38,939 bases of DNA, taken from Symbiobacterium sp. GTDB lineage: Bacteria > Bacillota > Sulfobacillia > DUSP01 > DYEP01. The notes beneath the pieces are model-generated. The model ran no database searches. It worked only from the letters and a program-made list of their open reading frames with translations, and was not told the origin of the DNA. This document shows positions 12,724 through 28,842 of this stretch, one piece after another; the first letter of the stretch is position 1; each line of letters begins with the position of its first letter. The stretch covers positions 1 to 38,939 of the forward strand of contig DYEP01000226.1 of assembly GCA_020725675.1 (NCBI GenBank), in the 5' to 3' direction. The position numbers and the translations under genes were made by a program.

Positions 12724-13227
12724 CTATTTTGTCATTCTTGCCTTGATCAAAGCGGCACTTCCCACAGCGCCGATCACGATACCTGAGGCACTTTGGCCGA
12801 TATTCCCGTATATCTCCAGTGCAACAGCTGCAGGTCCGTAAAGAATCCATGTGGCCGCTGCATACCCTAGCACGACTACAAGCGCTCCCGCGGTCATTCC
12901 AAGGAGACGACCCGCTACACCTTTGTTGTGGCCCAAGACACCAACAACCCAGCCTGCCATCGATTTTATTATTAAAGTCCACGGCGCCCACACCGCCCAA
13001 CCGCCCAGTATATCCGCCACCGCAGATCCGAACCCCCCGGCCACGGCTCCAACTGCAGGCCCAAATACCAAGGAAGCTGTAAAGATCAACCCGTCCCCCA
13101 GGTGGTAGTACCCCGTGACACCAGGGATTTTGAGGAACAATGTCCCCAAGGCCACTGCCGCTGACGCCACTCCCATAGAAGCTATCTGTACCACTTTTGC
13201 ATTTGACATTCTTTCCATTTCCAGCAT
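12724..13227 (-). CDS. ECF transporter S component (pfam07155-like, riboflavin-type)
   Basis: GYYHLGDGLIFTASLVFGPAVGAVAGGFGSAVADILGGWAVWAPWTLIIK is typical of ECF S components; preceded by an FMN riboswitch. Confidence 0.88.
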   Translation of the reverse strand: MLEMERMSNAKVVQIASMGVASAAVALGTLFLKIPGVTGYYHLGDGLIFTASLVFGPAVGAVAGGFGSAVADILGGWAVWAPWTLIIKSMAGWVVGVLGHNKGVAGRLLGMTAGALVVVLGYAAATWILYGPAAVALEIYGNIGQSASGIVIGAVGSAALIKARMTK

Positions 13228-13277: not shown

Positions 13278-13313
13278 TTTCGGGCGGACGTGTGCGAATA
13301 TGCTTCGCACGCG

Positions 13314-13447
13314 CCTTCTCCCATTCAGACTATACTGCCGGCTCCGGATTCTCACCGGATCAACTGCTGGGGCTGATGGGCTCGTCCCTTGAGGGCATCA
13401 CCACCGGTCGGAATCAAGGACTCACGTCCTATCACCATCCCCGAAGG
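13314..13447 (-). ncRNA. FMN riboswitch (RFN element)
   Basis: Minus strand reads CCTTCGGGGATGGTG...ATTCCGACCGGTGGTGATGCCC...GAGCCC...TTGATCCGGTGAGAATCCGGAGCCGGCAGTATAGTCTGAATGGGAGAAGG, the near-canonical RFN consensus. Confidence 0.95.
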
Positions 13448-13565
13448 CCGCTGCAATAGATATGATATTCTCTTTGATTAAATGGATTCCTTCAAGAGGT
13501 CACTGTATAATTACCTGATGTGTGAGCAGTAATTTTCTACCACAAATTGGGTTGGGTCTTGCGTC

Positions 13566-13594
13566 TTGACTACCAAGGGGTTCATTTTTATAAT
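13566..13594 (+). promoter_or_regulatory. Sigma-A promoter: -35 TTGACT (13566-13571), 17-bp spacer, -10 TATAAT (13589-13594)
   Basis: Direct reading. Confidence 0.85.
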
Positions 13595-13601
13595 TAGTAT
13601 A

Positions 13602-13615
13602 CGAACAGATGTTCG
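13602..13615. promoter_or_regulatory. LexA (DinR) SOS box CGAACAGATGTTCG
   Basis: Matches the Gram-positive CGAAC-N4-GTTCG consensus, at about +1 of the promoter. Confidence 0.92.
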
Positions 13616-13639
13616 CTATTAATCGAGGGGTGATGTCTA

Positions 13640-14815
13640 ATGAAACGGATAGCATACCTCTGGTTTAAGGGTTTAATATCAGAAACAGAAAACGCATCTC
13701 CTGCCGTAGTGGTAGACTCAAATCAGATAGTAGATTTATCCGCCACTCCTGAAATCTGCGGTATATACCCTGGTATGAAACTCGTCCACGCCAAGAAGAT
13801 CTGTCCTAATCTGAAAGTGCTACCCTTTGATGAAAAACAGTTCAAATTGGTACTGGAACCGATTATTGATAATATCCTTGAGTGTACACCAAGGGTGGAA
13901 AAGCTTTCACCCAACGAACTGTTTGTTGCCATTTTCCAAACCGAACAATCCTTCTTGGGCCACCTTAAAAAATGTTTAAAACCCTCTTATCGGGTGATCG
14001 CCGGGTTTGGTTCAAACAAGTTTCTTGCGAAAATAGCGGCGTTAAAAGTAAGGCAAGACGTGGAAAAGGGTAAGCTTTTACCAATTAAGCCTCTCCTTTA
14101 TTCCTCAATCCCAAGTGGCAGCGAGTCCGATTTTTTGAAATCACTGCCGGTGGACTTCCTTTGGCCGCTTCCTGGCTTGATCCCAGATTTAAGAAACCTT
14201 GGATTCCATACTTTGGGTGAGATCGCCTCAGCTCCCGAGCCAATGCTATATGGACTTTTTGGACATAACGGTAAGCGCGCACAGGATCTTAGTAAAGGTA
14301 TTGACACAGATGGAGTTCCTCTTTTCGTCAAAGATGAGATCTGGGAAATGGAGAACGAGTTCGAACCGGAAATATCAGACACCGCACCAATAGAAAACTT
14401 CATAAAATATGCGTCGGAGATATTATGCCGGAAAATGGAATCCACCGGCAAAACCGCCGGGTATATAAAGATTGGATTAAAATATACCGATGGGTCGTTG
14501 AAAGAACAGAAACGGGAGTATAAGGCCGGACCTAATCCTGAAGCCATAAACCGGTCCGCATCATTACTTTTAAACGGCATTAAGAAAACTTCCCGGGTTA
14601 AATCAGTGACACTGTCGGCAGGTGATTTCAAAGCAAGTCAACAATCTCAGATAACGTTCTTTGACAGAGATCTAAAGATTGAGAATGCACTCTCTGGTCT
14701 TTTAAGCAAATATCCTATCAAGACAGGAAGCATGGAAGAATCAAGAAGAGAGCGCATGCTCAGGCTCTGGGATCCAATCAGGGCGGGATATAAGTCGTCG
14801 CCCGGCGCATCGTAA
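13640..14815 (+). CDS. imuB: Y-family DNA polymerase-like protein, ImuB-like with degenerate catalytic site
   Basis: Y-family layout: YPGMKLVHAKKICPNLKVLPFD, GFGSNKFLAKIAALK, LPGLIPDLRNLGFHTLGEIA. Catalytic blocks altered (IAYLWFKGL; SPNE in place of SIDE). QITFF near C-terminus is a possible clamp motif. Confidence 0.82.
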   Translation: MKRIAYLWFKGLISETENASPAVVVDSNQIVDLSATPEICGIYPGMKLVHAKKICPNLKVLPFDEKQFKLVLEPIIDNILECTPRVEKLSPNELFVAIFQTEQSFLGHLKKCLKPSYRVIAGFGSNKFLAKIAALKVRQDVEKGKLLPIKPLLYSSIPSGSESDFLKSLPVDFLWPLPGLIPDLRNLGFHTLGEIASAPEPMLYGLFGHNGKRAQDLSKGIDTDGVPLFVKDEIWEMENEFEPEISDTAPIENFIKYASEILCRKMESTGKTAGYIKIGLKYTDGSLKEQKREYKAGPNPEAINRSASLLLNGIKKTSRVKSVTLSAGDFKASQQSQITFFDRDLKIENALSGLLSKYPIKTGSMEESRRERMLRLWDPIRAGYKSSPGAS

Positions 14816-14840
14816 AAAAGAAGGGAGCCTTTTTAGGGGT

Positions 14841-15074
14841 ATGCGGTTACCCATTTATGTATCTGAAAGCCTGGGAAGGCCGCTGAAACTCAGGATCCGG
14901 GGCTGTTGGCAACAGGTTGAACAGATCATTGAGGAGTGGACGGATTCAGGGCAATGGTGGGATGGGGAGTGTGAAAAGAGATTTTTCCGTATTATCTCAA
15001 ACGGTGGATTGTATGAGATCTATAAGGAAATTGCTCCTCAAGGACGCTGGTTCCTTTATAAGGTCTATGACTGA
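14841..15074 (+). CDS. DUF6504-like small protein in the mutasome cassette
   Basis: RIRGCWQQVEQIIEEWTDSGQWWDGECEKRFFRIISNGGLYEIYKEIAPQGRWFLYKVYD follows the WRGRRYxVxxVLxxWxxxGxWW pattern I recall for DUF6504; RBS-like AAGAAGGGAG upstream. Confidence 0.72.
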   Translation: MRLPIYVSESLGRPLKLRIRGCWQQVEQIIEEWTDSGQWWDGECEKRFFRIISNGGLYEIYKEIAPQGRWFLYKVYD

Positions 15075-15098
15075 TAAAGTGCAGGGAGCTGAGCAGTC

Positions 15099-18000
15099 GT
15101 GAAGCCATTCTTTATACACTTGCACACCCACTCCTACTTTTCTTTTTTAGATGGATCAAGCAGCATCAAGACATTGGTAGAAACCGCTGCAGCGCTGAAC
15201 ATGCCAGCGCTTGCTCTGACAGATCACAATAATGTTTCGGGCGCAGTTCTGTTTCAGCAGACTTCAGAAGAATATGGGATAAGACCCATCCAGGGAGCAG
15301 AACTTTCGCTCAAGGGTGGTTCTCACCTGGTGCTTCTCTGCAACGGGCCAAAGGGTTACGCCAACCTTTGCCGCCTCATTACCTCCGCTTATATGAGTGG
15401 CACAAAATTGCGCCCTGAACTGGATCCCAGCGAGCTCAAGTTTCATTCGGCTCATCTATTTGCACTATCAGGTTGTAGAAAGAGCGAAATAGCAAGACTT
15501 ATATTTCAACGGAATTTTGATAAAGCCCTGGATTTGTGTTATTGGTACAAAGATATTTTTGGCGATCGTTTCTTTTTGGAAATGGAAGCGGGACCGTTAC
15601 CAGGTACACACCTTTTAAATTCACGTTTGAAAGAGCTTTCGGATAAGGCAAAAGTCCCGCTCGTCGTTTCATGTAATGTTCATTACGCTCGCAGAGAGGA
15701 TTTTAAGATACATGATATTCTCACTTGCGTACGTACGCTCACGCAAATTTGGGACGTTCACCCTGAACGGCGTTTAAACCCTGAAAACTACATGAAAGCG
15801 GCATCCGAAATTGTTGTCTTGAACGAATACCCCGAGGTGATGCAGGGGCTTGAGCGGATCGTTTATTCCTGCGAGCCGGCACTGGACTTGAAGGCAAGGC
15901 ACTTCCCGTCGTTCGAAGTACCTTCAGGTCAGACTTCACATGATTACTTGTCCACACTGGTATTCCAAGGAGCAGCCAGGCGTTACGGAAAGGTCACCGA
16001 AAAGGTACGGGCCCGGTTGCTTCAGGAGCTGGATGTCATTTACAGACTGGGTTATTCAGATTACTTCCTCCTCGTATGGGATGTGGCACGATTCGCACGG
16101 GAGAATGGAATAAGGTACGCTGGCAGGGGCTCAGCGGCTGACTCTGCGGTAGCTTACTGCCTTGAAATCACTGAAGTGGATGCTATTGAAAGAGGCCTGT
16201 TATTTGAAAGGTTTCTGAGCCTGGAAAGGGCCCAAAAACCCGACATCGACATCGATTTTGATCAGCGCCACAGGGACCGGGTGGCAGACTATGTCTACAA
16301 GAAATATGGAAACGACCACGTGGCTGCAGTGTGTACCTTCAACACATACAGGGCAAGGTCTGCCGTCCGTGATCTGGGCAAAGTGCTGGGTTACCCTGCC
16401 GAAGAAATAGACCGCATCGCTAAGAGACTGCCGTGGATCCCCGCAGATGGTATTGAACAAGCCATCCCCCACTTCCCCGAGCTCCGGGACGCCCCGGTCA
16501 ACTGGGAAAAATACAGCTTTCTTTTTGAATGCTGTGCTAAAGTGGCAGGCTTCCCAAGACACCTGGGTACTCACCTTGGGGGCCTGGTAATAAGTAAAGA
16601 GCCTGTTTTGAACTATACTCCCCTTCAGCTGGCTGCCAAAGGAATAGCGGTTTCCCAATTTGACAAAGACGCTATAGAAGACCTGGGCCTTGTTAAGCTG
16701 GACCTGCTTTCATTGCGCACCCTGTCTGCAGTAGATATAGCGGTCGCATCAATAAGGGAGGAGCGTCCCGACTTTGATTACGACGCCATTCCCCCTGGGG
16801 ACCCGGATACCTACAGGATGCTCAATACCGGTGAGACCATAGGGGTATTTCAGCTTGAAAGCCCGGCCCAGAGAGCATTGCAATCACGCCTCGGTGCCGA
16901 TTGCATTGAGGACATCGTCGCCAGCGTAGCTTTGATCAGGCCCGGTCCGATCAAGGGCAATATGGTTGAGCCCTTCTTGAGGAGACGTCATGGCGAAGAA
17001 GAGGTATCATACCTTCACCCGAAGCTTCGCCCCATACTTGAAAAGACCTACGGTGTGGTGTTATTTCAGGAACAAGTAATCGAGATCGCCACTACGATCG
17101 CAGGTTTCACGCCAGGCGAAGCCGACAAATTAAGGCGCGTCATGACTCATAGCCGTTCCCAAGCAGAGATGGATGAGATAGGCCGGGAATTCGTAAAAAA
17201 AGCTATGATAAACGGAATAGAAGAAAAGACGGCACATACCATATTCTCATATGTCGCAGGGTATGCCAGTTATGGTTTTTGTGAAGCGCACGCAGCGGCT
17301 TTTGCAAAAACCGCATATAAAACAGCATACCTCATTAGACATTATCCAGCTGAGTTTTTTGCAGCCATCCTATCCATGCAGCCCATGGGTTATTACTCCC
17401 CTCAGGTGATCTGTCAGGAAGCGGCAAGACGGGGTATAAGGATACTAGGACCGGATATAAATGTGAGCCAGAGCGTCTTTTTACCTGAAAATAATACTAT
17501 CCGGGTTTCCTTAAAACAGGTGCAGGGAATGACGGAAGAGCTGCTTTCACGCATACTGAAAGAAAGAGAACACGGTGCTTTCACATCATTTGAGGATTTC
17601 TGCTTGCGGGTCAGACCGGATGCGGATATCCTGCAAAACCTCATCCTGTGCGGGTCTTTCGATAGCATTTCCGACAACAGGAGATTGCTTATGTGGAAAT
17701 TAAAGACAGGTCTGTATTTAAAAAACCCCTTACTTCAACCCAATTATGATATTAAAGATTTCAGCCTTCGGGAAAAGATCTGCCACGAATTTAATATCCT
17801 TGGGCTCATGGTATCGTGCCACATTATGAGTACTTTCAGAAAATGGTTGTCCAGAAAAGGCTTCCTAACCGCCGAACAAGTCAAAAAGGCAAAACCCGGA
17901 TCATTTGTGAAAATAGCTGGTCTGCCTATAAGACCACATAGACCGCCTGTGCGAAGCGGCAAGACCATAGTCTTCATGGCGGTAGCGGACGAAACTGGTA

Positions 18001-18155
18001 TAGTGGATGTGACAGTGTTTGAGCCCATATATCAAAAATGCGGTAGCGCCCTGTTCCGAGAATCACCCCCGCCCCTTTTAATATCCGGCTGTACTGAAAA
18101 AAGAGGAAACCATATTACGATTAATGCATCAAGTCTGGCGCCCTTCCTGGCTTAA
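15099..18155 (+). CDS. dnaE2: DNA polymerase III alpha subunit, DnaE2/ImuC-like
   Basis: PHP domain HLHTHSYFSFLDG / ALALTDHNN, polymerase motif PDIDIDFDQRHRD, C-terminal OB fold; HLVLLCNGPKGYANLCRLITSA resembles DnaE2; GTG start. Confidence 0.9.
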   Translation: MKPFFIHLHTHSYFSFLDGSSSIKTLVETAAALNMPALALTDHNNVSGAVLFQQTSEEYGIRPIQGAELSLKGGSHLVLLCNGPKGYANLCRLITSAYMSGTKLRPELDPSELKFHSAHLFALSGCRKSEIARLIFQRNFDKALDLCYWYKDIFGDRFFLEMEAGPLPGTHLLNSRLKELSDKAKVPLVVSCNVHYARREDFKIHDILTCVRTLTQIWDVHPERRLNPENYMKAASEIVVLNEYPEVMQGLERIVYSCEPALDLKARHFPSFEVPSGQTSHDYLSTLVFQGAARRYGKVTEKVRARLLQELDVIYRLGYSDYFLLVWDVARFARENGIRYAGRGSAADSAVAYCLEITEVDAIERGLLFERFLSLERAQKPDIDIDFDQRHRDRVADYVYKKYGNDHVAAVCTFNTYRARSAVRDLGKVLGYPAEEIDRIAKRLPWIPADGIEQAIPHFPELRDAPVNWEKYSFLFECCAKVAGFPRHLGTHLGGLVISKEPVLNYTPLQLAAKGIAVSQFDKDAIEDLGLVKLDLLSLRTLSAVDIAVASIREERPDFDYDAIPPGDPDTYRMLNTGETIGVFQLESPAQRALQSRLGADCIEDIVASVALIRPGPIKGNMVEPFLRRRHGEEEVSYLHPKLRPILEKTYGVVLFQEQVIEIATTIAGFTPGEADKLRRVMTHSRSQAEMDEIGREFVKKAMINGIEEKTAHTIFSYVAGYASYGFCEAHAAAFAKTAYKTAYLIRHYPAEFFAAILSMQPMGYYSPQVICQEAARRGIRILGPDINVSQSVFLPENNTIRVSLKQVQGMTEELLSRILKEREHGAFTSFEDFCLRVRPDADILQNLILCGSFDSISDNRRLLMWKLKTGLYLKNPLLQPNYDIKDFSLREKICHEFNILGLMVSCHIMSTFRKWLSRKGFLTAEQVKKAKPGSFVKIAGLPIRPHRPPVRSGKTIVFMAVADETGIVDVTVFEPIYQKCGSALFRESPPPLLISGCTEKRGNHITINASSLAPFLA

Positions 18156-18404: not shown

Positions 18405-20135
18405 ATGAGAAAGATCCTGCGGGTCAACATGTCTGACCTCTCTCTGGCCTGGGAAGATCTTCCCGAAAAGTACCGGTTCCTGGGAGGAAGAGCGCTTACT
18501 TCCTCAATAGTATGCGACGAGGTCCCGCCCACATGTCATCCTTTGGGTCCAAGCAATAAACTGGTCATCGCTCCTGGTATACTCTCCGGCACGTCTGCAC
18601 CTAGCTCAGGCCGAATTTCTTGCGGCGGAAAGAGCCCTCTAACCGGAACCATAAAGGAGTCAAATGCTGGAGGACTTCCCGCCCAGAAACTCGGGCGCCT
18701 GGGTATTGCGGCCATTATTGTCGAAGGCAAGCCCAAGGACGCAGTATTCAGATTGCTGAAGATCAACAAGGATGGAGCCGAGCTCATTCCTGTGCCAGAG
18801 CTGGTGGGCAAGGGTATGTACGAGACCAACAGACTGCTATGGGACAGGTTCGGTAAAGTCGGAATCATGGGAATAGGCCCAGCCGGGGAAATGCTGCTAA
18901 CGAATGCTGGCATATCCTGCAATGATACGGAGAACGGCCCGGGGAGATACGCCGGACGCGGTGGCCTTGGGGCGCTTATGGGCTCAAAACAGCTGAAGGC
19001 CATTGTGGTAGATGATACCGGTGCTCCCGGAGTCCATATCGCCAACAAGGAGCTATTTGACACCGGCAGAAAGAAGATGGTGAAGGCCCTCACCAGTCAC
19101 GCAGTCACCTCACAGGCTCTTCCCACCTATGGGACTGCAGTACTTATCAATATCATGAACGAGGCGGGTGGACTGCCCACGAGGAATTTCAGCTCAGGTC
19201 GGTTTGAAGGGGCAAAACAGATCAGCGGAGAAGCTATTGCCGAGCTTACCGCCAGCCGCGGCGGCGCCGGCAAGATGGGCCATCCCTGCCATCCCGGCTG
19301 TATCATCAAATGTTCTAATGTCATCCCCTATGAGGACGGAAGCTACCATGTTGCGCCTTTGGAGTATGAGTCGGACTGGGCCCTCGGTGCCAACTGCGGG
19401 ATTGACAACCTTGATGCTATAGCTGAACTGAACCGTATTTGCAATGACGTAGGTCTTGATACGATCGAAGCGGGTTGTACTCTGGCAGTGGCGATGGAAG
19501 CAGGCTTGGCGAAGTTCGGCGATCACGAAGCTGCCATAGAGCTACTCAAAGAAGTTGGAAAGGGTAGCGCCCTTGGTAGAGTGCTGGGCTGCGGTTCCGC
19601 TTCCGTTGCCAGAACGTACGGAGTGACGAGGTGCCCCACAGTAAAGGGCCAGGCAATGCCCGCTTATGAGCCCAGAGCCGTCAAAGGAATCGGGTTCACG
19701 TACGCCACCTCTACAATGGGCGCAGACCATACCGCAGGTTACACCATCGCCCCCGAAATCCTCGGCGTAAGCGGGAAGAGCGATCCGTTTGATCCAAACA
19801 AGGCGGAGCTGGCTCGGAACTTCCAGGCAACAACAACATTCATTGATTCGACCGGGTACTGCTTGTTCATTGCCTTCGCCATACTTGACATACCTGAAGG
19901 TTTCGAGGGGATGATCGAGTCAGTCAACGGTGTAACTGGTTCTGACTGGAAGGGCGACGACGTTTTAGAGCTCGGGAAGCAATGGCTCAAGATGGAGCGG
20001 AAATTCAACCTCGCAGCAGGTTTCGGACCAGTCCATGATAGGGTACCCGAGTTTATGAAATACGAAAAGCTGCCACCGCACGACACAACTTGGGATGTGC
20101 CTGATGAAATGCTGGATGCAGTACACGATTACTAA
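18405..20135 (+). CDS. Aldehyde ferredoxin oxidoreductase-family tungsten enzyme
   Basis: LGGRALTSSIVCDEV, SGRISCGGKSPLTGTIKESNAGG, GAGKMGHPCHPGCIIKCSN. Confidence 0.92.
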   Translation: MRKILRVNMSDLSLAWEDLPEKYRFLGGRALTSSIVCDEVPPTCHPLGPSNKLVIAPGILSGTSAPSSGRISCGGKSPLTGTIKESNAGGLPAQKLGRLGIAAIIVEGKPKDAVFRLLKINKDGAELIPVPELVGKGMYETNRLLWDRFGKVGIMGIGPAGEMLLTNAGISCNDTENGPGRYAGRGGLGALMGSKQLKAIVVDDTGAPGVHIANKELFDTGRKKMVKALTSHAVTSQALPTYGTAVLINIMNEAGGLPTRNFSSGRFEGAKQISGEAIAELTASRGGAGKMGHPCHPGCIIKCSNVIPYEDGSYHVAPLEYESDWALGANCGIDNLDAIAELNRICNDVGLDTIEAGCTLAVAMEAGLAKFGDHEAAIELLKEVGKGSALGRVLGCGSASVARTYGVTRCPTVKGQAMPAYEPRAVKGIGFTYATSTMGADHTAGYTIAPEILGVSGKSDPFDPNKAELARNFQATTTFIDSTGYCLFIAFAILDIPEGFEGMIESVNGVTGSDWKGDDVLELGKQWLKMERKFNLAAGFGPVHDRVPEFMKYEKLPPHDTTWDVPDEMLDAVHDY

Positions 20136-20147
20136 TTAGACTGAACG

Positions 20148-20174
20148 AAGGACCCGGGTTCAGCCCGGGTCCTT
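20148..20174. terminator. Strong hairpin (11-bp stem) between AOR and MoaD-like genes
   Basis: AAGGACCCGGG-TTCAG-CCCGGGTCCTT; no U-tract, so it may attenuate or protect mRNA. Confidence 0.55.
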
Positions 20175-20196
20175 CCAAGTTGGGGGGTGGATTTGC

Positions 20197-20478
20197 TTGA
20201 TAACCGTGTTTCTTTACGGAGATCTGCGTCGGGTGGTCGTGCCGCAGCCTCCTATTACCGAGGATGCTTGCGTCGATCTACCTTCTGACACAGTAGCAAC
20301 TGTACGGGATGTCATACTAAAGCTCGGTCTTTCTCCTGGTGAGGTCAGCCACAAATTTGTCAACCATGTCTACGTTTCAGAAAACTATCCCCTGAGGGAC
20401 GGGGACCGGGTCGCTCTATTCCCGATAAAAATGAGCCTGATTTACAGGCAGTATTTCCCCCGGGCCAATGAGAGGTGA
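20197..20478 (+). CDS. MoaD/ThiS-like beta-grasp protein lacking C-terminal GG
   Basis: Beta-grasp pattern VYVSENYPLRDGDRVALFPIKM; TTG start behind GGGGGGTGG; ends YFPRANER. Confidence 0.7.
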   Translation: MITVFLYGDLRRVVVPQPPITEDACVDLPSDTVATVRDVILKLGLSPGEVSHKFVNHVYVSENYPLRDGDRVALFPIKMSLIYRQYFPRANER

Positions 20479-20484
20479 ACTGAG

Positions 20485-20730
20485 ATGAAAATTGTCGTGA
20501 GGTTATATGCAACTTTGAGGCAATTCGTACCAGGCAGCAGAACGGGTGAACCACTAACAATCGAAGCCAAGGATCACCTTACGGTATCTGAATTGCTTGA
20601 GCATCTTGGGATCCCTGCTGACGTGACCAAGGTCGTGTTTGTAAATGGAAAACAAAGAGAGAGGGACCACGTGCTGCAAGACGGAGACGAAGTCGCTATG
20701 TTCCCTCCCATTGCCGGAGGTTCATGTTAA
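20485..20730 (+). CDS. MoaD/ThiS-family sulfur-carrier-like protein ending GGSC
   Basis: MKIVVRLYATLRQFVPG...VFVNGKQRERDHVLQDGDEVAMFPPIAGGSC. Confidence 0.88.
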   Translation: MKIVVRLYATLRQFVPGSRTGEPLTIEAKDHLTVSELLEHLGIPADVTKVVFVNGKQRERDHVLQDGDEVAMFPPIAGGSC

Positions 20731-23231: not shown

Positions 23232-26213
23232 TTAATCGCACAAGTGAACAAATGGGCAACGCGTACAATCATCTCTGTTTTCAGGGAATTCCTCATTGAG
23301 TATTCGCTCTGCGACACATGCAAGGAGGTCGGCAGTAGCACGCATGGCAGTCTCGGAGTTGTCCACCGGCAGCACCTCTCCGGTTCTCATGTAGTAAAGT
23401 AGAAGATCGGGCCTAGCCTCTTCCTTGTTTATTTGCGCCCACGCCATCCCATATATCCGGAGCTGGTGGGAGTAGTAATGGAGGTCCTTATCCAACATCA
23501 TCCTGTTGGTCTTGAAATCGACAATCCTGGGTCGCTCTTTATCGCGTATGACCATATCGATGAATCCTGACACCAAGATTGAATGTCCGCTGATACTCCA
23601 GGGCCAGTGAAACTCCACTTCAATGTCCTGTGGCAGCACTCGCGCAGCGCTGAGCCACGAGCGTTCGTACACAGACTTTAAGTTCTCCACATCCGCCTGG
23701 TAGTACCGGGCATATACGTCTGGAGAAAGCCCTACCCGGAGGGCAAGGCTTGTGCCATCAGTAGGATCTGTCCTCTTGCCAGTGTGATGTCTCCGGATTG
23801 CCTCGTGTACAAGCTTTCCGAGTAACGCACCGTCAGGATGCAAAGGCCCGGTGATTTTGCCGTGTTTTCCAGATATGCCAAGCACACGGGAAAAATAGTA
23901 GCGGCGCGGGCAGTCAATGTACTCCTTAAGTGCAGAAAAACTCAGGTGAACCGTGCGCGGTCCATCGGCTGAAGGCAAAGCAGAAGTCCTGTTGAAAAAC
24001 ATAAAACCGAGGCGGTCGCGGAGGCGTCCGCCAGCTGGCAGCTCGCCTCGTTCAGCGGAGTAGACCTGAGTACCCTCGGCCAATCTTAAGAGCTTTGCCG
24101 CCTCGGGATCATCCAGCAGTTCCCGCAGAAACTCCTTACCGTTCCCGGCAGCAGGTGATACCAGGAAGAGACGCGTCTTTGCCCTGGTAACCGCTACATA
24201 AAAGAGACGCCTCTCTTCCTGCTCTTGTTCAAGCATGACTCGCGGCTTGACACTCGTCTCGAACTTCTTTGTAGTCTTGCCTCCGGGCGCTTCTTTGCAG
24301 ACAACTCCCACGCCTGGTACATAGTATAGTCTGTCGTATCGTGGCTTCAGGGGGAATCTACCCCCTTTTAGGTTGCACACGAACACTACTGGAAATTCGA
24401 GTCCCTTCGCCTGGTGAATAGTGAGAATGTGGCACGCGTCCAATTCGGTGCAGGGCGCTTCGGGATTCAGCGCCTGCAACTCGTTTGCCACGTCCAGGTA
24501 TTCAAGCAGGGTATCAAGCCCTGCAAGCGGGTGGCTCTCCTCAAACTCCTCAATGAGTTCACCGAAGCTAGACAGGTTTGTTAGCGCACTGTCTCTTGAC
24601 TGCAGGGGAAGGGCATTCACCCACGCCAGGAGTCCGCTCTCTTCCACCGACGTTTTATACAGCCCGGCGAGGGTTGAACTCCCAGCGTACATCCTTAGCC
24701 GCTCAATAAGGGACACAAGCCTTTGACACCTGACATCCTGCTGGGTTTTGAAAATATCAAATAAAAGCAGCCCCGGTATTCTGTCTACCTCTAACCCGTC
24801 GAGCGTGAGTGCTCCAGCTCCTTGCAGTGCCAGGTCTGCCAGTACTGACGGAGGGATGCCAAACAATGCAGAGGAGGCGAGTTTGACCAAGGCCTGATTG
24901 TCGTATGGGTCGTGTATGACTCTGAGAAGAGCGATAGCATAGCCTACTTCAGTCGAGTCTGATAGTCCTGCGCCTCCCGCCGAATAGTAGGGAATTCCTC
25001 GGGCTCTGAGCGCTTCCTCGACGGGGCCCGCACCTGCCTTCACACTCCGGAATAAAATGGCGATCTCCCCAGGCTTTACTCCTGAACCAAGCAACGTTCG
25101 GATGCTTTCTGCAACAAACTCTGCCTCATCCTGTTCGTCTTTTGCCAGATATGCGGTCACCGATGATATATCCGGGCTTTCTGCGCATTGTGCCCTGAGT
25201 CGTATATCCTCAGATCTTTGAAAAAATCTCTCATCTTTGCAAATGCTTCGATGGGCCACTTCGAGTATGGGGTTTTGCGACCTGTAGTTGTCCTTCAAGT
25301 ATATGGTCTTGCCTCCCCACTCGTCCGCCAAGAAGTCGTCCATATTTTCAACCCTGGCGTTCCTCCAGGCATAAATTGCCTGCTTGTCATCGCCAACGAC
25401 TGTGACGTTTGACATGAATTTATCCTGAGCGACCAAGCTGAGAAGTCTAAACTGTGAGGCGTTGGTATCCTGGAATTCGTCTACGAGAATGTACCTGATC
25501 CTTTCGCGCAGGCGGCCCGCCAGTTCTTTGTCGCTATTGAGCAGACTACACGCCTTCACTACCAGGTCGGAGAAATCCAGTAGTCCGGAAGACTGAAGGG
25601 TTTCCTGATAAGACCGGTAAATCTGGTATACCAGTTCAGCGGCTTCCTTTTCATACTCCTCTTCGGCTCTCGTGAGCGCTTCGTGCAGAAACTCATCCGG
25701 AGTAATGGCCGTATCCTTCAGTTTCATGATCAGCCGGTGCGTCTCTTGATACAGAAACTCGGGATTTTCTACAGGAAGGCTCGGGGCTTTCAGGCGATAA
25801 CCTGTCCTGACCAGTTTGTCGACAGCCTTTCGGAACAAAAGCCCAGCCTCGATGTCGTCAGCCACTCCAAAAGCAGGATCAAGACCGGCCGAGACCGGGT
25901 TTTCTCTCAGCAGTTTTGTAGCAAACGAATGAAAGGTGGTGATATCAGCGTCAAGGAAATCCTCTTCGCGACAAAGTCCCATGCTGGTAGCACTACGGGC
26001 GATCCGCACCCTCATCTCCTCAGCGGCTCGGTTGGTGAAAGTGAGTGCGAGTACCCTGTCGGGCCCGATGCCTAGCGTACGTAGCGCTTCAATATACCGA
26101 AGGGTGAGCACTGTGGTTTTACCCGTTCCCGCACCCGCTGTGATCTTAAGCGGTCTGTCGAAAGGATGCTCTACTGCGTTTCTTTGATCCCGGTTCAGGC
26201 TCTCCTTATTCAT
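23232..26213 (-). CDS. UvrD/AddA-like helicase with C-terminal RecB-family (Fe-S) nuclease domain
   Basis: Walker A AGAGTGKTT, LVDEFQDTN, VAVTRAKTRLFLV; nuclease GFIDMVIRDKERPRIVDFKTNR; cysteines DCPRRYYF and CTRCPFVHLC. Start set at MNKESLNRDQ. Confidence 0.9.
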   Translation of the reverse strand: MNKESLNRDQRNAVEHPFDRPLKITAGAGTGKTTVLTLRYIEALRTLGIGPDRVLALTFTNRAAEEMRVRIARSATSMGLCREEDFLDADITTFHSFATKLLRENPVSAGLDPAFGVADDIEAGLLFRKAVDKLVRTGYRLKAPSLPVENPEFLYQETHRLIMKLKDTAITPDEFLHEALTRAEEEYEKEAAELVYQIYRSYQETLQSSGLLDFSDLVVKACSLLNSDKELAGRLRERIRYILVDEFQDTNASQFRLLSLVAQDKFMSNVTVVGDDKQAIYAWRNARVENMDDFLADEWGGKTIYLKDNYRSQNPILEVAHRSICKDERFFQRSEDIRLRAQCAESPDISSVTAYLAKDEQDEAEFVAESIRTLLGSGVKPGEIAILFRSVKAGAGPVEEALRARGIPYYSAGGAGLSDSTEVGYAIALLRVIHDPYDNQALVKLASSALFGIPPSVLADLALQGAGALTLDGLEVDRIPGLLLFDIFKTQQDVRCQRLVSLIERLRMYAGSSTLAGLYKTSVEESGLLAWVNALPLQSRDSALTNLSSFGELIEEFEESHPLAGLDTLLEYLDVANELQALNPEAPCTELDACHILTIHQAKGLEFPVVFVCNLKGGRFPLKPRYDRLYYVPGVGVVCKEAPGGKTTKKFETSVKPRVMLEQEQEERRLFYVAVTRAKTRLFLVSPAAGNGKEFLRELLDDPEAAKLLRLAEGTQVYSAERGELPAGGRLRDRLGFMFFNRTSALPSADGPRTVHLSFSALKEYIDCPRRYYFSRVLGISGKHGKITGPLHPDGALLGKLVHEAIRRHHTGKRTDPTDGTSLALRVGLSPDVYARYYQADVENLKSVYERSWLSAARVLPQDIEVEFHWPWSISGHSILVSGFIDMVIRDKERPRIVDFKTNRMMLDKDLHYYSHQLRIYGMAWAQINKEEARPDLLLYYMRTGEVLPVDNSETAMRATADLLACVAERILNEEFPENRDDCTRCPFVHLCD

Positions 26214-28842
26214 CGTTCGTCTCCTGTCCTTGACAGACAAAGATATAGGGGCATCGCGAGCAGTTGCCCGGTTTGGAGGGCCGGGCCGGGAAACTGCCAG
26301 AAAAGATCTCTTGGGAAACTTTACACATCTCCTCAAGCGCCTGTTCCATCTGCGCCGGTGTGATACTGAATGCCCCCCTGTCCTGTCCGATCCAGATCTC
26401 TCGGACAAAGGGCGTGCCATGGCGGGTTATGTTTTCAAGCTGGATGACGCTCACACAAACGGGATGATAGCCGAGCCGTGACGCCGCCAGGTAATACAAC
26501 GGAAGCTGGAAGTCCTCGGGGGACCAGTTCTCATCGCCATCGCCCATAAACTGCCTGATAAGCGCCTTCTCCGAAGCATTACTGCTGCCCGTCTTATAAT
26601 CCAAGACAACAGCTTCTCCTCCGGGCAACAGATCAATCCTGTCTATTCTGCCAGTATATGTATACCCGAGGTGTGATACCTCAAATACCTGCTCGAGCGA
26701 TGCAAATGTCCGCTCGGAGCACCACCTATATGCCAAAGGTGTGTAGCTTTCCAGCACCTGCATCAGCCTGTGGCGCAGACGGTTCACAATAAGTGCGCTG
26801 TCGATCCGCATTCCAGCTACAGTCTGCTCCAGCAAAAGCAGCGCCAATTCCCGGACCTCATTCGCGCTCGTGCAATGCTTAAGTTCCGGGCTTTGATGAA
26901 GCAGGAACAGACATTTGTGAACAGCTTCACCAAAACTGAGGGCATGATGCGGTGCCACATCCAGCCTGAGTACTCGCTGGTAGAAGAATTTTCGAGGGCA
27001 CTGCAAATACGCTCTGATACTGGAGGCGGACAACTTGAAGTTATCTGGCAGTATCACCCTGTCATCTTCGTACAGAGCAGCAGCAACAGCTCTGTCCGCC
27101 AAAGCGGGCGTTGTCCGCTTCGGCACCCCATTTGGTAAGGCCGCAGTCACAGCTGGAGCAGGCAAGTATGGGGAAGGTGACTCCTCATGGAGCCCGTCAT
27201 AGCTTCGTGCATAGCTGATGTGGGAATGCCTGCCCGCGTTCAGCAAACCACTGAACAGGAGAGCACGGTGCTTGAGGAACTGTTCCTGGTCGGTACTGGG
27301 GTGTGGAGGTATTCTCAGGAGCGCGCAGAGCGCGTTCTGGCTATGCCTTTCAAGGATGTATATACCCTTTCTTCTGCCGGGATACACCCTTAGCACTGCA
27401 GCAGGTATGAAAATATGCTCGAAGTACCGACCTACCGCATCTCCGGGACGAATGAAGCAAACGCCTTGCCCTGAGGCAGTACGCATGTGCGGAGCAAAGT
27501 ACCTGATGCCGTACTCTATCTCCTCAGAAAACCTGCCAAGGTCTTTTTCTCCAGTCAGCACCTGTATCTGTACTCCCATTTCCGTGATGATGTTAAGCTG
27601 CTGAAAGTACGCGGGAGCGTCCTTCTGGTTCTGGCACCACCTCAATAGGTGCTCATAGTTAGTCACCCTAAATAGAGCCTCGAGTGGGTCGTCAAACGGG
27701 TCTGACAACAGTGATACCAGGGAGCGGGCCCGCTCATATCCAGCATGATCCCTGAACATGTGTCTGTCAATGAATTCCCTTATACCCCTGGTACCTGCAC
27801 AATACTGAATCCTTTTTACGTCGATGGAGTTGATGCCTACAACAGGCGAAGATAACGCCCTTACCAGAGATTCGTCATCTCCCTGCATAGCGCGCAGGCA
27901 ATCCAGCACAAATGCCAAACATAGACCTTTGGGCCCCGGATCGACGGCATCATTTCTGGGCACGCCGAACATATCCAGGTACTGCCTAATGAGCCTGTCC
28001 ACCGAAAGCCCTGAAATCACTATGGCCACCTTGTCCGGACTCACCCCGTCAGATACCAGGGTCTTCACACTGTCTGCAAGCCAGAGTGCTTCATCATTGC
28101 CCGAATCCAGTGAGACTACCTGGGGCGGATCGTAAGCAACTGTGCCCTGGGTAGTGTGAGCACAGGAGTGGATGATGAACGAGCAATCTCCTGCAATAGA
28201 AGTGGCTGCTTCAACGACCGGTGCAGGTTGTCGTTCAGGTTCAACTATGACCTTCAGCATAAATTCGGGCAGGGTAATATGCTTCATATCAACGGTTCGC
28301 AGCATCCTGGGAAGGTCCGAGAACCCGACACTCCCCCTGCGGTGTATCTCTGCGTCATATTCGGTATAGATGCGAGCAACGTCAAGGATCTTAGGTGAGC
28401 GGATCTTCGTTGCCATTTTCATAAACTGCCCCGGCTCTACTGCGTTTTCCCTGAGGTGATTGAATAGGCTCAGCATACCATCGACCGCTCCGCGAGTATT
28501 ACACACCGAAGCAAGCTCACTCTTGTAAGCGAAGGAGCGCACCACATGGCGAAGCAGGATCCACTCCCGCCAACCCTCCAAAAGAGCCGGTTCCCTGCCG
28601 GCCTTCCTCAGAAGTTTTATTACCAACCCGTCGTACGTCAGGTTCCAGTCCTCACCGTAGGCACCTGGCAGCACGTTACTGAGAACTTCAGAAAAACGTT
28701 CCCGGTAAGCCCGGCTGGGAGAGACGATGAATACTTGCTCGCGACGGGCGCCACGGGCAGCTGCGTGCTCCAGTAGCCGCCGGACTTCCGGGACTACATC
28801 AGCACCCAGTTTGATTGACAGTGAGGTCATGTGTTGGGTCAT
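26206..28842 (-). CDS. AddB-like PD-(D/E)XK nuclease protein with Fe-S cysteines
   Basis: No Walker A; QCPRKFFYQR, GRIDRIDLLPGGEAVVLDYKTGSS, CSRCPYIFVC; short overlap with the helicase gene. Confidence 0.87.
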   Translation of the reverse strand: MTQHMTSLSIKLGADVVPEVRRLLEHAAARGARREQVFIVSPSRAYRERFSEVLSNVLPGAYGEDWNLTYDGLVIKLLRKAGREPALLEGWREWILLRHVVRSFAYKSELASVCNTRGAVDGMLSLFNHLRENAVEPGQFMKMATKIRSPKILDVARIYTEYDAEIHRRGSVGFSDLPRMLRTVDMKHITLPEFMLKVIVEPERQPAPVVEAATSIAGDCSFIIHSCAHTTQGTVAYDPPQVVSLDSGNDEALWLADSVKTLVSDGVSPDKVAIVISGLSVDRLIRQYLDMFGVPRNDAVDPGPKGLCLAFVLDCLRAMQGDDESLVRALSSPVVGINSIDVKRIQYCAGTRGIREFIDRHMFRDHAGYERARSLVSLLSDPFDDPLEALFRVTNYEHLLRWCQNQKDAPAYFQQLNIITEMGVQIQVLTGEKDLGRFSEEIEYGIRYFAPHMRTASGQGVCFIRPGDAVGRYFEHIFIPAAVLRVYPGRRKGIYILERHSQNALCALLRIPPHPSTDQEQFLKHRALLFSGLLNAGRHSHISYARSYDGLHEESPSPYLPAPAVTAALPNGVPKRTTPALADRAVAAALYEDDRVILPDNFKLSASSIRAYLQCPRKFFYQRVLRLDVAPHHALSFGEAVHKCLFLLHQSPELKHCTSANEVRELALLLLEQTVAGMRIDSALIVNRLRHRLMQVLESYTPLAYRWCSERTFASLEQVFEVSHLGYTYTGRIDRIDLLPGGEAVVLDYKTGSSNASEKALIRQFMGDGDENWSPEDFQLPLYYLAASRLGYHPVCVSVIQLENITRHGTPFVREIWIGQDRGAFSITPAQMEQALEEMCKVSQEIFSGSFPARPSKPGNCSRCPYIFVCQGQETNDE

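Follow-up and report, generated by a model that had tools for sequence, protein, structure and literature searches.

A probable SOS-controlled iPolY–ImuB-C–DnaE2 polymerase cassette without a detectable imuA in a Symbiobacterium genome

Genes and regulatory signals of the cassette

The window analysed here (the whole 38,939-nt stretch of contig DYEP01000226.1, forward strand, to whose positions all coordinates refer) contains three co-directional genes that encode an inactive Y-family protein (iPolY), a 77-aa protein and a C-family DNA polymerase (Table 1). An earlier note on this DNA had described three closely spaced genes flanked by a divergent ECF gene upstream and aldehyde ferredoxin oxidoreductase downstream; both neighbours were found, and the gene coordinates were confirmed, with gaps of 25 nt (iPolY to the 77-aa gene) and 24 nt (77-aa gene to dnaE). 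Its family guesses agreed with Pfam, which assigned IMS/IMS_C to the first gene, DUF6504 to the second and PHP, DNA_pol3_alpha, finger and HHH_6 domains to the third.

Table 1 Features of the cassette and its surroundings in the window
Feature	Position	Strand	Basis or remark
ECF riboflavin-transporter S component	12724–13227	−	Divergent from the cassette; ordinary
FMN riboswitch (RF00050)	13309–13452	−	70 bits; precedes the riboflavin-transporter S component; ordinary
Sigma-70-type promoter	13566–13594	+	Best sigma-70-like match of the region
LexA (SOS) box CGAACAGATGTTCG	13602–13615	+	Shortly 3′ of the −10 hexamer; CGAACN4GTTCG has no other exact occurrence in the genome
iPolY, ImuY-like inactive Y-family protein, 391 aa, ATG	13640–14815	+	Pfam IMS/IMS_C; catalytic columns; C-terminal alignment
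Standalone ImuB-C (DUF6504, PF20114), 77 aa, ATG	14841–15074	+	Pfam; family of Deinococcus deserti ImuB-C; hhalign
DnaE2-type C-family DNA polymerase, 1018 aa, GTG	15099–18155	+	Pfam, trees, residues
Aldehyde ferredoxin oxidoreductase, then two ThiS/MoaD-like genes (20197–20478, 20485–20730)	18405–20730	+	Downstream of the cassette
UvrD-type helicase with PD-(D/E)XK nuclease domain, preceded by an 878-aa ORF	23232–28842	−	May be an AddAB-like pair

The putative promoter, TTGACT-17-TATAAT, matches the consensus at 11 of 12 positions. Because the scan as a whole yielded no more sites than shuffled sequences, its support comes from its position and the adjoining LexA box, a near-palindrome 24 nt ahead of the iPolY ATG. 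The sequence CGAACNNNNGTTCG occurs only once in the 2.56-Mb assembly, at this site. The genome encodes LexA from a gene outside the cassette (C127), and imperfect boxes (CGAACATATGTACG and CGAACATAAGTTTG) lie upstream of this lexA, suggesting that the LexA of this genome probably reads a Bacillus-type box. The SOS regulon of the genome was sampled by sequence patterns only; the 15 other exact GAACN4GTTC sites that we read lay mostly within long ORFs or had no clear gene start. Across related cassettes, a box with one transition allowed was present in 33 of 56 stretches spanning −300 to +30 (approximately 0.013 expected per stretch, as estimated from the remainder of the loci), and the other 23 leaders held none at this tolerance. 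In a tighter test on 53 related leaders, 32 carried LexA-type boxes (dinucleotide shuffles: mean of 0.28, maximum of 2 in 200; reversed controls: 2). The column counts read CGAACA..TGTT(C/T). At the sequence level, the unique box, the boxes before lexA and the conservation among related leaders thus support the SOS-type control, by a LexA box behind a promoter, that the earlier note had proposed.

An inactive Y-family protein, a standalone ImuB-C and the search for ImuA

The 391-aa protein matches Pfam IMS (2.4e-12) and IMS_C. In an alignment with Pol IV of the same genome, two of its three catalytic carboxylates are lost (the first D is W, the second N) and only the E is kept, whereas the separate 410-aa Pol IV has intact CDLDAFF and SIDEAY motifs with all three carboxylates. 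Membership of the protein among active Pol IV (DinB) enzymes was checked and is ruled out, as the three carboxylates are not all present; the protein is a degenerate Y-family polymerase, as first proposed, and is predicted to be catalytically dead. The genome has only two IMS genes, which leaves no canonical ImuB at any other site. iPolY keeps a clamp-binding motif, QITFF, followed by a conserved tail (RRExML..DPxR, residues ~369–382) that is present in most iPolYs of the clade and was not seen in the Pol IV of this genome; this tail is a candidate for a peptide that docks onto ImuB-C or DnaE2. Four related cassettes (L068, L070, L072 and L081) encode an iPolY of only 175–187 aa, which lacks the palm but retains the little finger and the tail as well as the clamp motif. 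These cassettes are otherwise normal, and the missing palm part was not found upstream in L070, L072 or L081 (L068 stands at a contig end with no upstream sequence). The palm-less forms with clamp motif and tail therefore favour a role for iPolY as an adaptor and disfavour catalysis. The family is highly diverged (20–35% identity among relatives), and it was searched for by profile because plain pairwise search misses iPolY in some cassettes.

The 77-aa protein matches PF20114 (DUF6504) at 25.2 bits, just above the 24.2-bit cut-off, as does the standalone ImuB-C (80 aa) of D. deserti. A profile built from approximately 60 such proteins matches, over its whole length, the C-terminal ~80 residues of ImuB (hhalign probability of 93%, E = 2.9e-7), and the reciprocal comparison of the ImuB C terminus with the 77-aa-type profile gave 86%; the ImuB side comprised 11 proteins, mostly from annotated imuA–imuB–dnaE2 plasmid loci. 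This match rules out a novel third subunit of no known family: the small protein, which the earlier note had considered a possible third component, is instead the known ImuB-C, and the DUF6504 gene is explained as a split-off ImuB-C domain. The protein corresponds to the C-terminal part of ImuB and, by sequence comparison, the first two genes together therefore represent a split ImuB; a fused ImuB is not present, as iPolY ends at its own tail and ImuB-C is a separate gene. Structures predicted from two sequences each were too poor to use (mean pLDDT of 50.2 for iPolY and 51.7 for the 77-aa protein). Standalone DUF6504/ImuB-C genes also occur with no adjoining polymerase gene on a Thermaerobacter plasmid (L141) and an Alicyclobacillus plasmid (L143).

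An ImuA protein was used directly as a query because the RecA profile PF00154 barely recognises ImuA itself. No imuA was found in the locus or genome, the best match to an ImuA query having an E value of 0.02 over 47 residues, in agreement with the earlier note, which saw no imuA in the locus. Apart from a single RecA, the genome gave one weak RadA-like hit and no RecA paralogue. imuA thus appears to be absent from the genome, save possibly for a very diverged ImuA. Of 52 genomes, almost all of which carry the cassette, one only (G392) has a second full RecA.

Whether the ordinary RecA could take the place of ImuA turns on a stretch of iPolY resembling RecA-NT (residues 343–359). The match is weak, both against the full-length family (P = 0.0075) and on the isolated tail (hhalign 46–54%), there is no Pfam match, and several related iPolYs (L102–L104 and L115–L118) have the stretch in truncated form or not at all. 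Its presence in this iPolY is suggested but not established. These points leave room for an alternative in which iPolY, ImuB-C and DnaE2 suffice and RecA serves for induction only, as reported for Caulobacter ImuAB–DnaE2, and a study of the Deinococcus system describes the requirement for RecA as not known (PMC8072749). However, in the full-length family the top match to RecA-NT comes after the clamp motif, where it would be expected, and RecA-NT motifs and modelled RecA binding have been published for iPolYs of such systems (PMC6511836 and PMC12926913); we regard this alternative as the less probable of the two.

The DnaE polymerase and the distribution of its clade

In a PolC-rooted mixture-model tree, the window DnaE clade groups together with the known DnaE2s (100/100, branch length of 0.49), and E. 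coli DnaE1, the DnaE1 of the same genome, clostridial DnaE1 and a Bacillaceae DnaE3 fall outside this group. A second PolC-rooted tree gave the same DnaE2 grouping, and an unrooted tree gave the same three groups. The DnaE2-like identity suggested in the earlier note is upheld, and placement in the DnaE1/DnaE3 clade, which was tested directly, was not recovered. Within the group, the window clade is itself supported at 100/100 and stands apart from the sampled proteobacterial, actinobacterial, Thermomicrobium and D. deserti DnaE2s; the D. deserti polymerase is not close (32% identity) nor its branch adjacent to the window clade. The DnaE retains the polymerase aspartates (D401, D403 and D555 in E. 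coli numbering) and all PHP metal ligands except D201, which is N here and in most of the clade (other PHP ligands kept) and D in the DnaE1 of this genome, making a change of proofreading activity possible. The QxxLF clamp motif is absent between the HhH and OB regions, whereas the DnaE1 of the genome has QLTLF there. PolC is also encoded, making this a PolC + DnaE1 + DnaE2 organism.

A reading of this DnaE as a non-mutagenic enzyme, either a second replicase or a polymerase for general repair, with only loose links to its neighbours, could draw on the NCBIfam scores, which slightly favour DnaE1 (878 bits) over error-prone DnaE (853 bits; both below cut-off), and on a nearly complete PHP metal site unlike that of proteobacterial DnaE2. 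The PolC-rooted trees nevertheless exclude a DnaE1/DnaE3 identity, the clamp motif is missing, the genome already has its own DnaE1 and PolC, and the operon and SOS box are conserved, all of which make this reading improbable. The divergence of iPolY might likewise suggest a decaying remnant; this is more improbable still, given that the three frames are open, that DnaE is 52–59% identical to many orthologues without stops, and that the polymerase aspartates and the LexA box are intact. A DnaE2-type polymerase in a maintained operon is the reading that we follow below.

The window DnaE clade or its nearest kin was present in 91 of 400 genomes drawn evenly from the phylum (~41–65% identity; hand count of rows scoring above the DnaE1 level), and a scan of viral contigs with the window DnaE gave no relatives. 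Neighbourhood analysis, as proposed in the earlier note, showed that the three genes share one direction in 52 of the 61 related loci examined, and the same gene order was found in a Limnochordaceae metagenome-assembled genome (L010). In L105, iPolY does not head the operon but is oriented divergently from the ImuB-C and DnaE2 genes, and in L062, L071, L076 and L101, 1.2–1.7 kb separate ImuB-C from DnaE2 with no evident long co-directional gene within. Two deeper-branching DnaE2-side polymerases (L119 and L120) are directly preceded by ImuB-C, and no iPolY was found in the stretch read 5′ of dnaE (~5 kb in L119, ~1 kb in L120); the 2026 survey discussed below (PMC12926913) lists DnaE2–ImuB-C pairs from Actinobacteria only.

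Relation to known mutasomes and proposed mechanism

Cassettes of this composition have been described before. Aravind et al. (2013; PMC3765255) named ImuB-C, using Swol_1669 of Syntrophomonas wolfei as a search seed, and noted standalone ImuB-C in operons with DnaE2 and inactive DinB; Timinskas and Venclovas (2019; PMC6511836) described the operon of the Firmicute Kyrpidia tusciae; and a 2026 survey (PMC12926913) defined DnaE2X–iPolY–ImuB-C–RecA, which occurs with all three replication systems. The minimal Firmicute mutasome of the earlier note is borne out as a cassette with SOS-type control and no imuA, but its arrangement had already been published. The window locus shares with the K. tusciae module its composition, a Gram-positive host, PolC + DnaE1, and a genome without imuA or canonical imuB, a likeness by composition. 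The D. deserti cassette (lexA–imuY–imuB-C–dnaE2), in whose host UV mutagenesis disappears when ImuY, DnaE2 or RecA-C is lost, with similar results in D. ficus (PMC8072749), has the same order of inactive Y-family protein, standalone ImuB-C and DnaE2, the same LexA control and no imuA, but carries lexA within the cassette and a DnaE2 with a degenerate PHP site, whereas the DnaE here has a nearly intact one and forms part of a separate clade. ImuA–ImuB–DnaE2 (ImuABC) likewise combines a dead Y-family adaptor with clamp motif, an ImuB-C domain, DnaE2 and SOS control, but the window lacks ImuA, has ImuB in two genes and has a DnaE2 outside the sampled ImuA-associated group. Streptomyces-type iPolY–DnaE2 (DnaE2B) also pairs an inactive Y-family protein with an adjoining DnaE2 without imuA, but lacks ImuB-C, and a Kitasatospora DnaE2 from such a neighbourhood (L146) falls in another branch. 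Judged by these comparisons, the cassette is most likely a well-preserved Gram-positive member of the kind known from Deinococcus. To the published systems we add evidence for a large separate Bacillota DnaE clade, broad conservation of the SOS box and palm-less iPolY variants.

The operon—whose gene order, protein families, lost catalytic residues, clamp motifs, conserved box and lack of imuA are read from the DNA itself—very probably encodes an SOS-inducible error-prone translesion polymerase complex of the iPolY–ImuB-C–DnaE2 kind, with a split ImuB and no ImuA. For induction, subunit contacts, the RecA partnership and mutagenesis, the relatives suggest the following scheme. LexA bound at the box would block the promoter until RecA filaments on damaged DNA trigger its self-cleavage, whereupon all three proteins would be made together. 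DnaE2 would be the only catalytic subunit, synthesising across lesions, and is predicted to lack strong sliding-clamp binding of its own. iPolY would serve as the adaptor: its QITFF motif would take the beta clamp, while its little finger and C-terminal parts, with ImuB-C, would dock onto DnaE2 at the PHP domain. These docking details follow the mycobacterial complex as modelled with AlphaFold in a published study (PMC12926913), in which ImuB-C sits on the PHP domain and the thumb on the HhH region. The RecA-NT-like stretch of iPolY would probably let ordinary RecA replace ImuA, and the outcome would be that lesions are bypassed and mutation rises after DNA damage.

More tentatively, the Bacillota cassette may constitute a separate and common branch of DnaE2 mutasomes—a sister clade of the known DnaE2s, with a near-intact PHP site bearing a clade-typical D-to-N change, a split ImuB and RecA in place of ImuA as driver—that could lie near the ancestral form of ImuA–ImuB–DnaE2. 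The cassette identifies a probable SOS mutagenesis machine for a broad set of little-studied Gram-positive bacteria and, because such systems have no ImuA, opens the way to testing directly if RecA also functions within a DnaE2 mutasome as one of its subunits.
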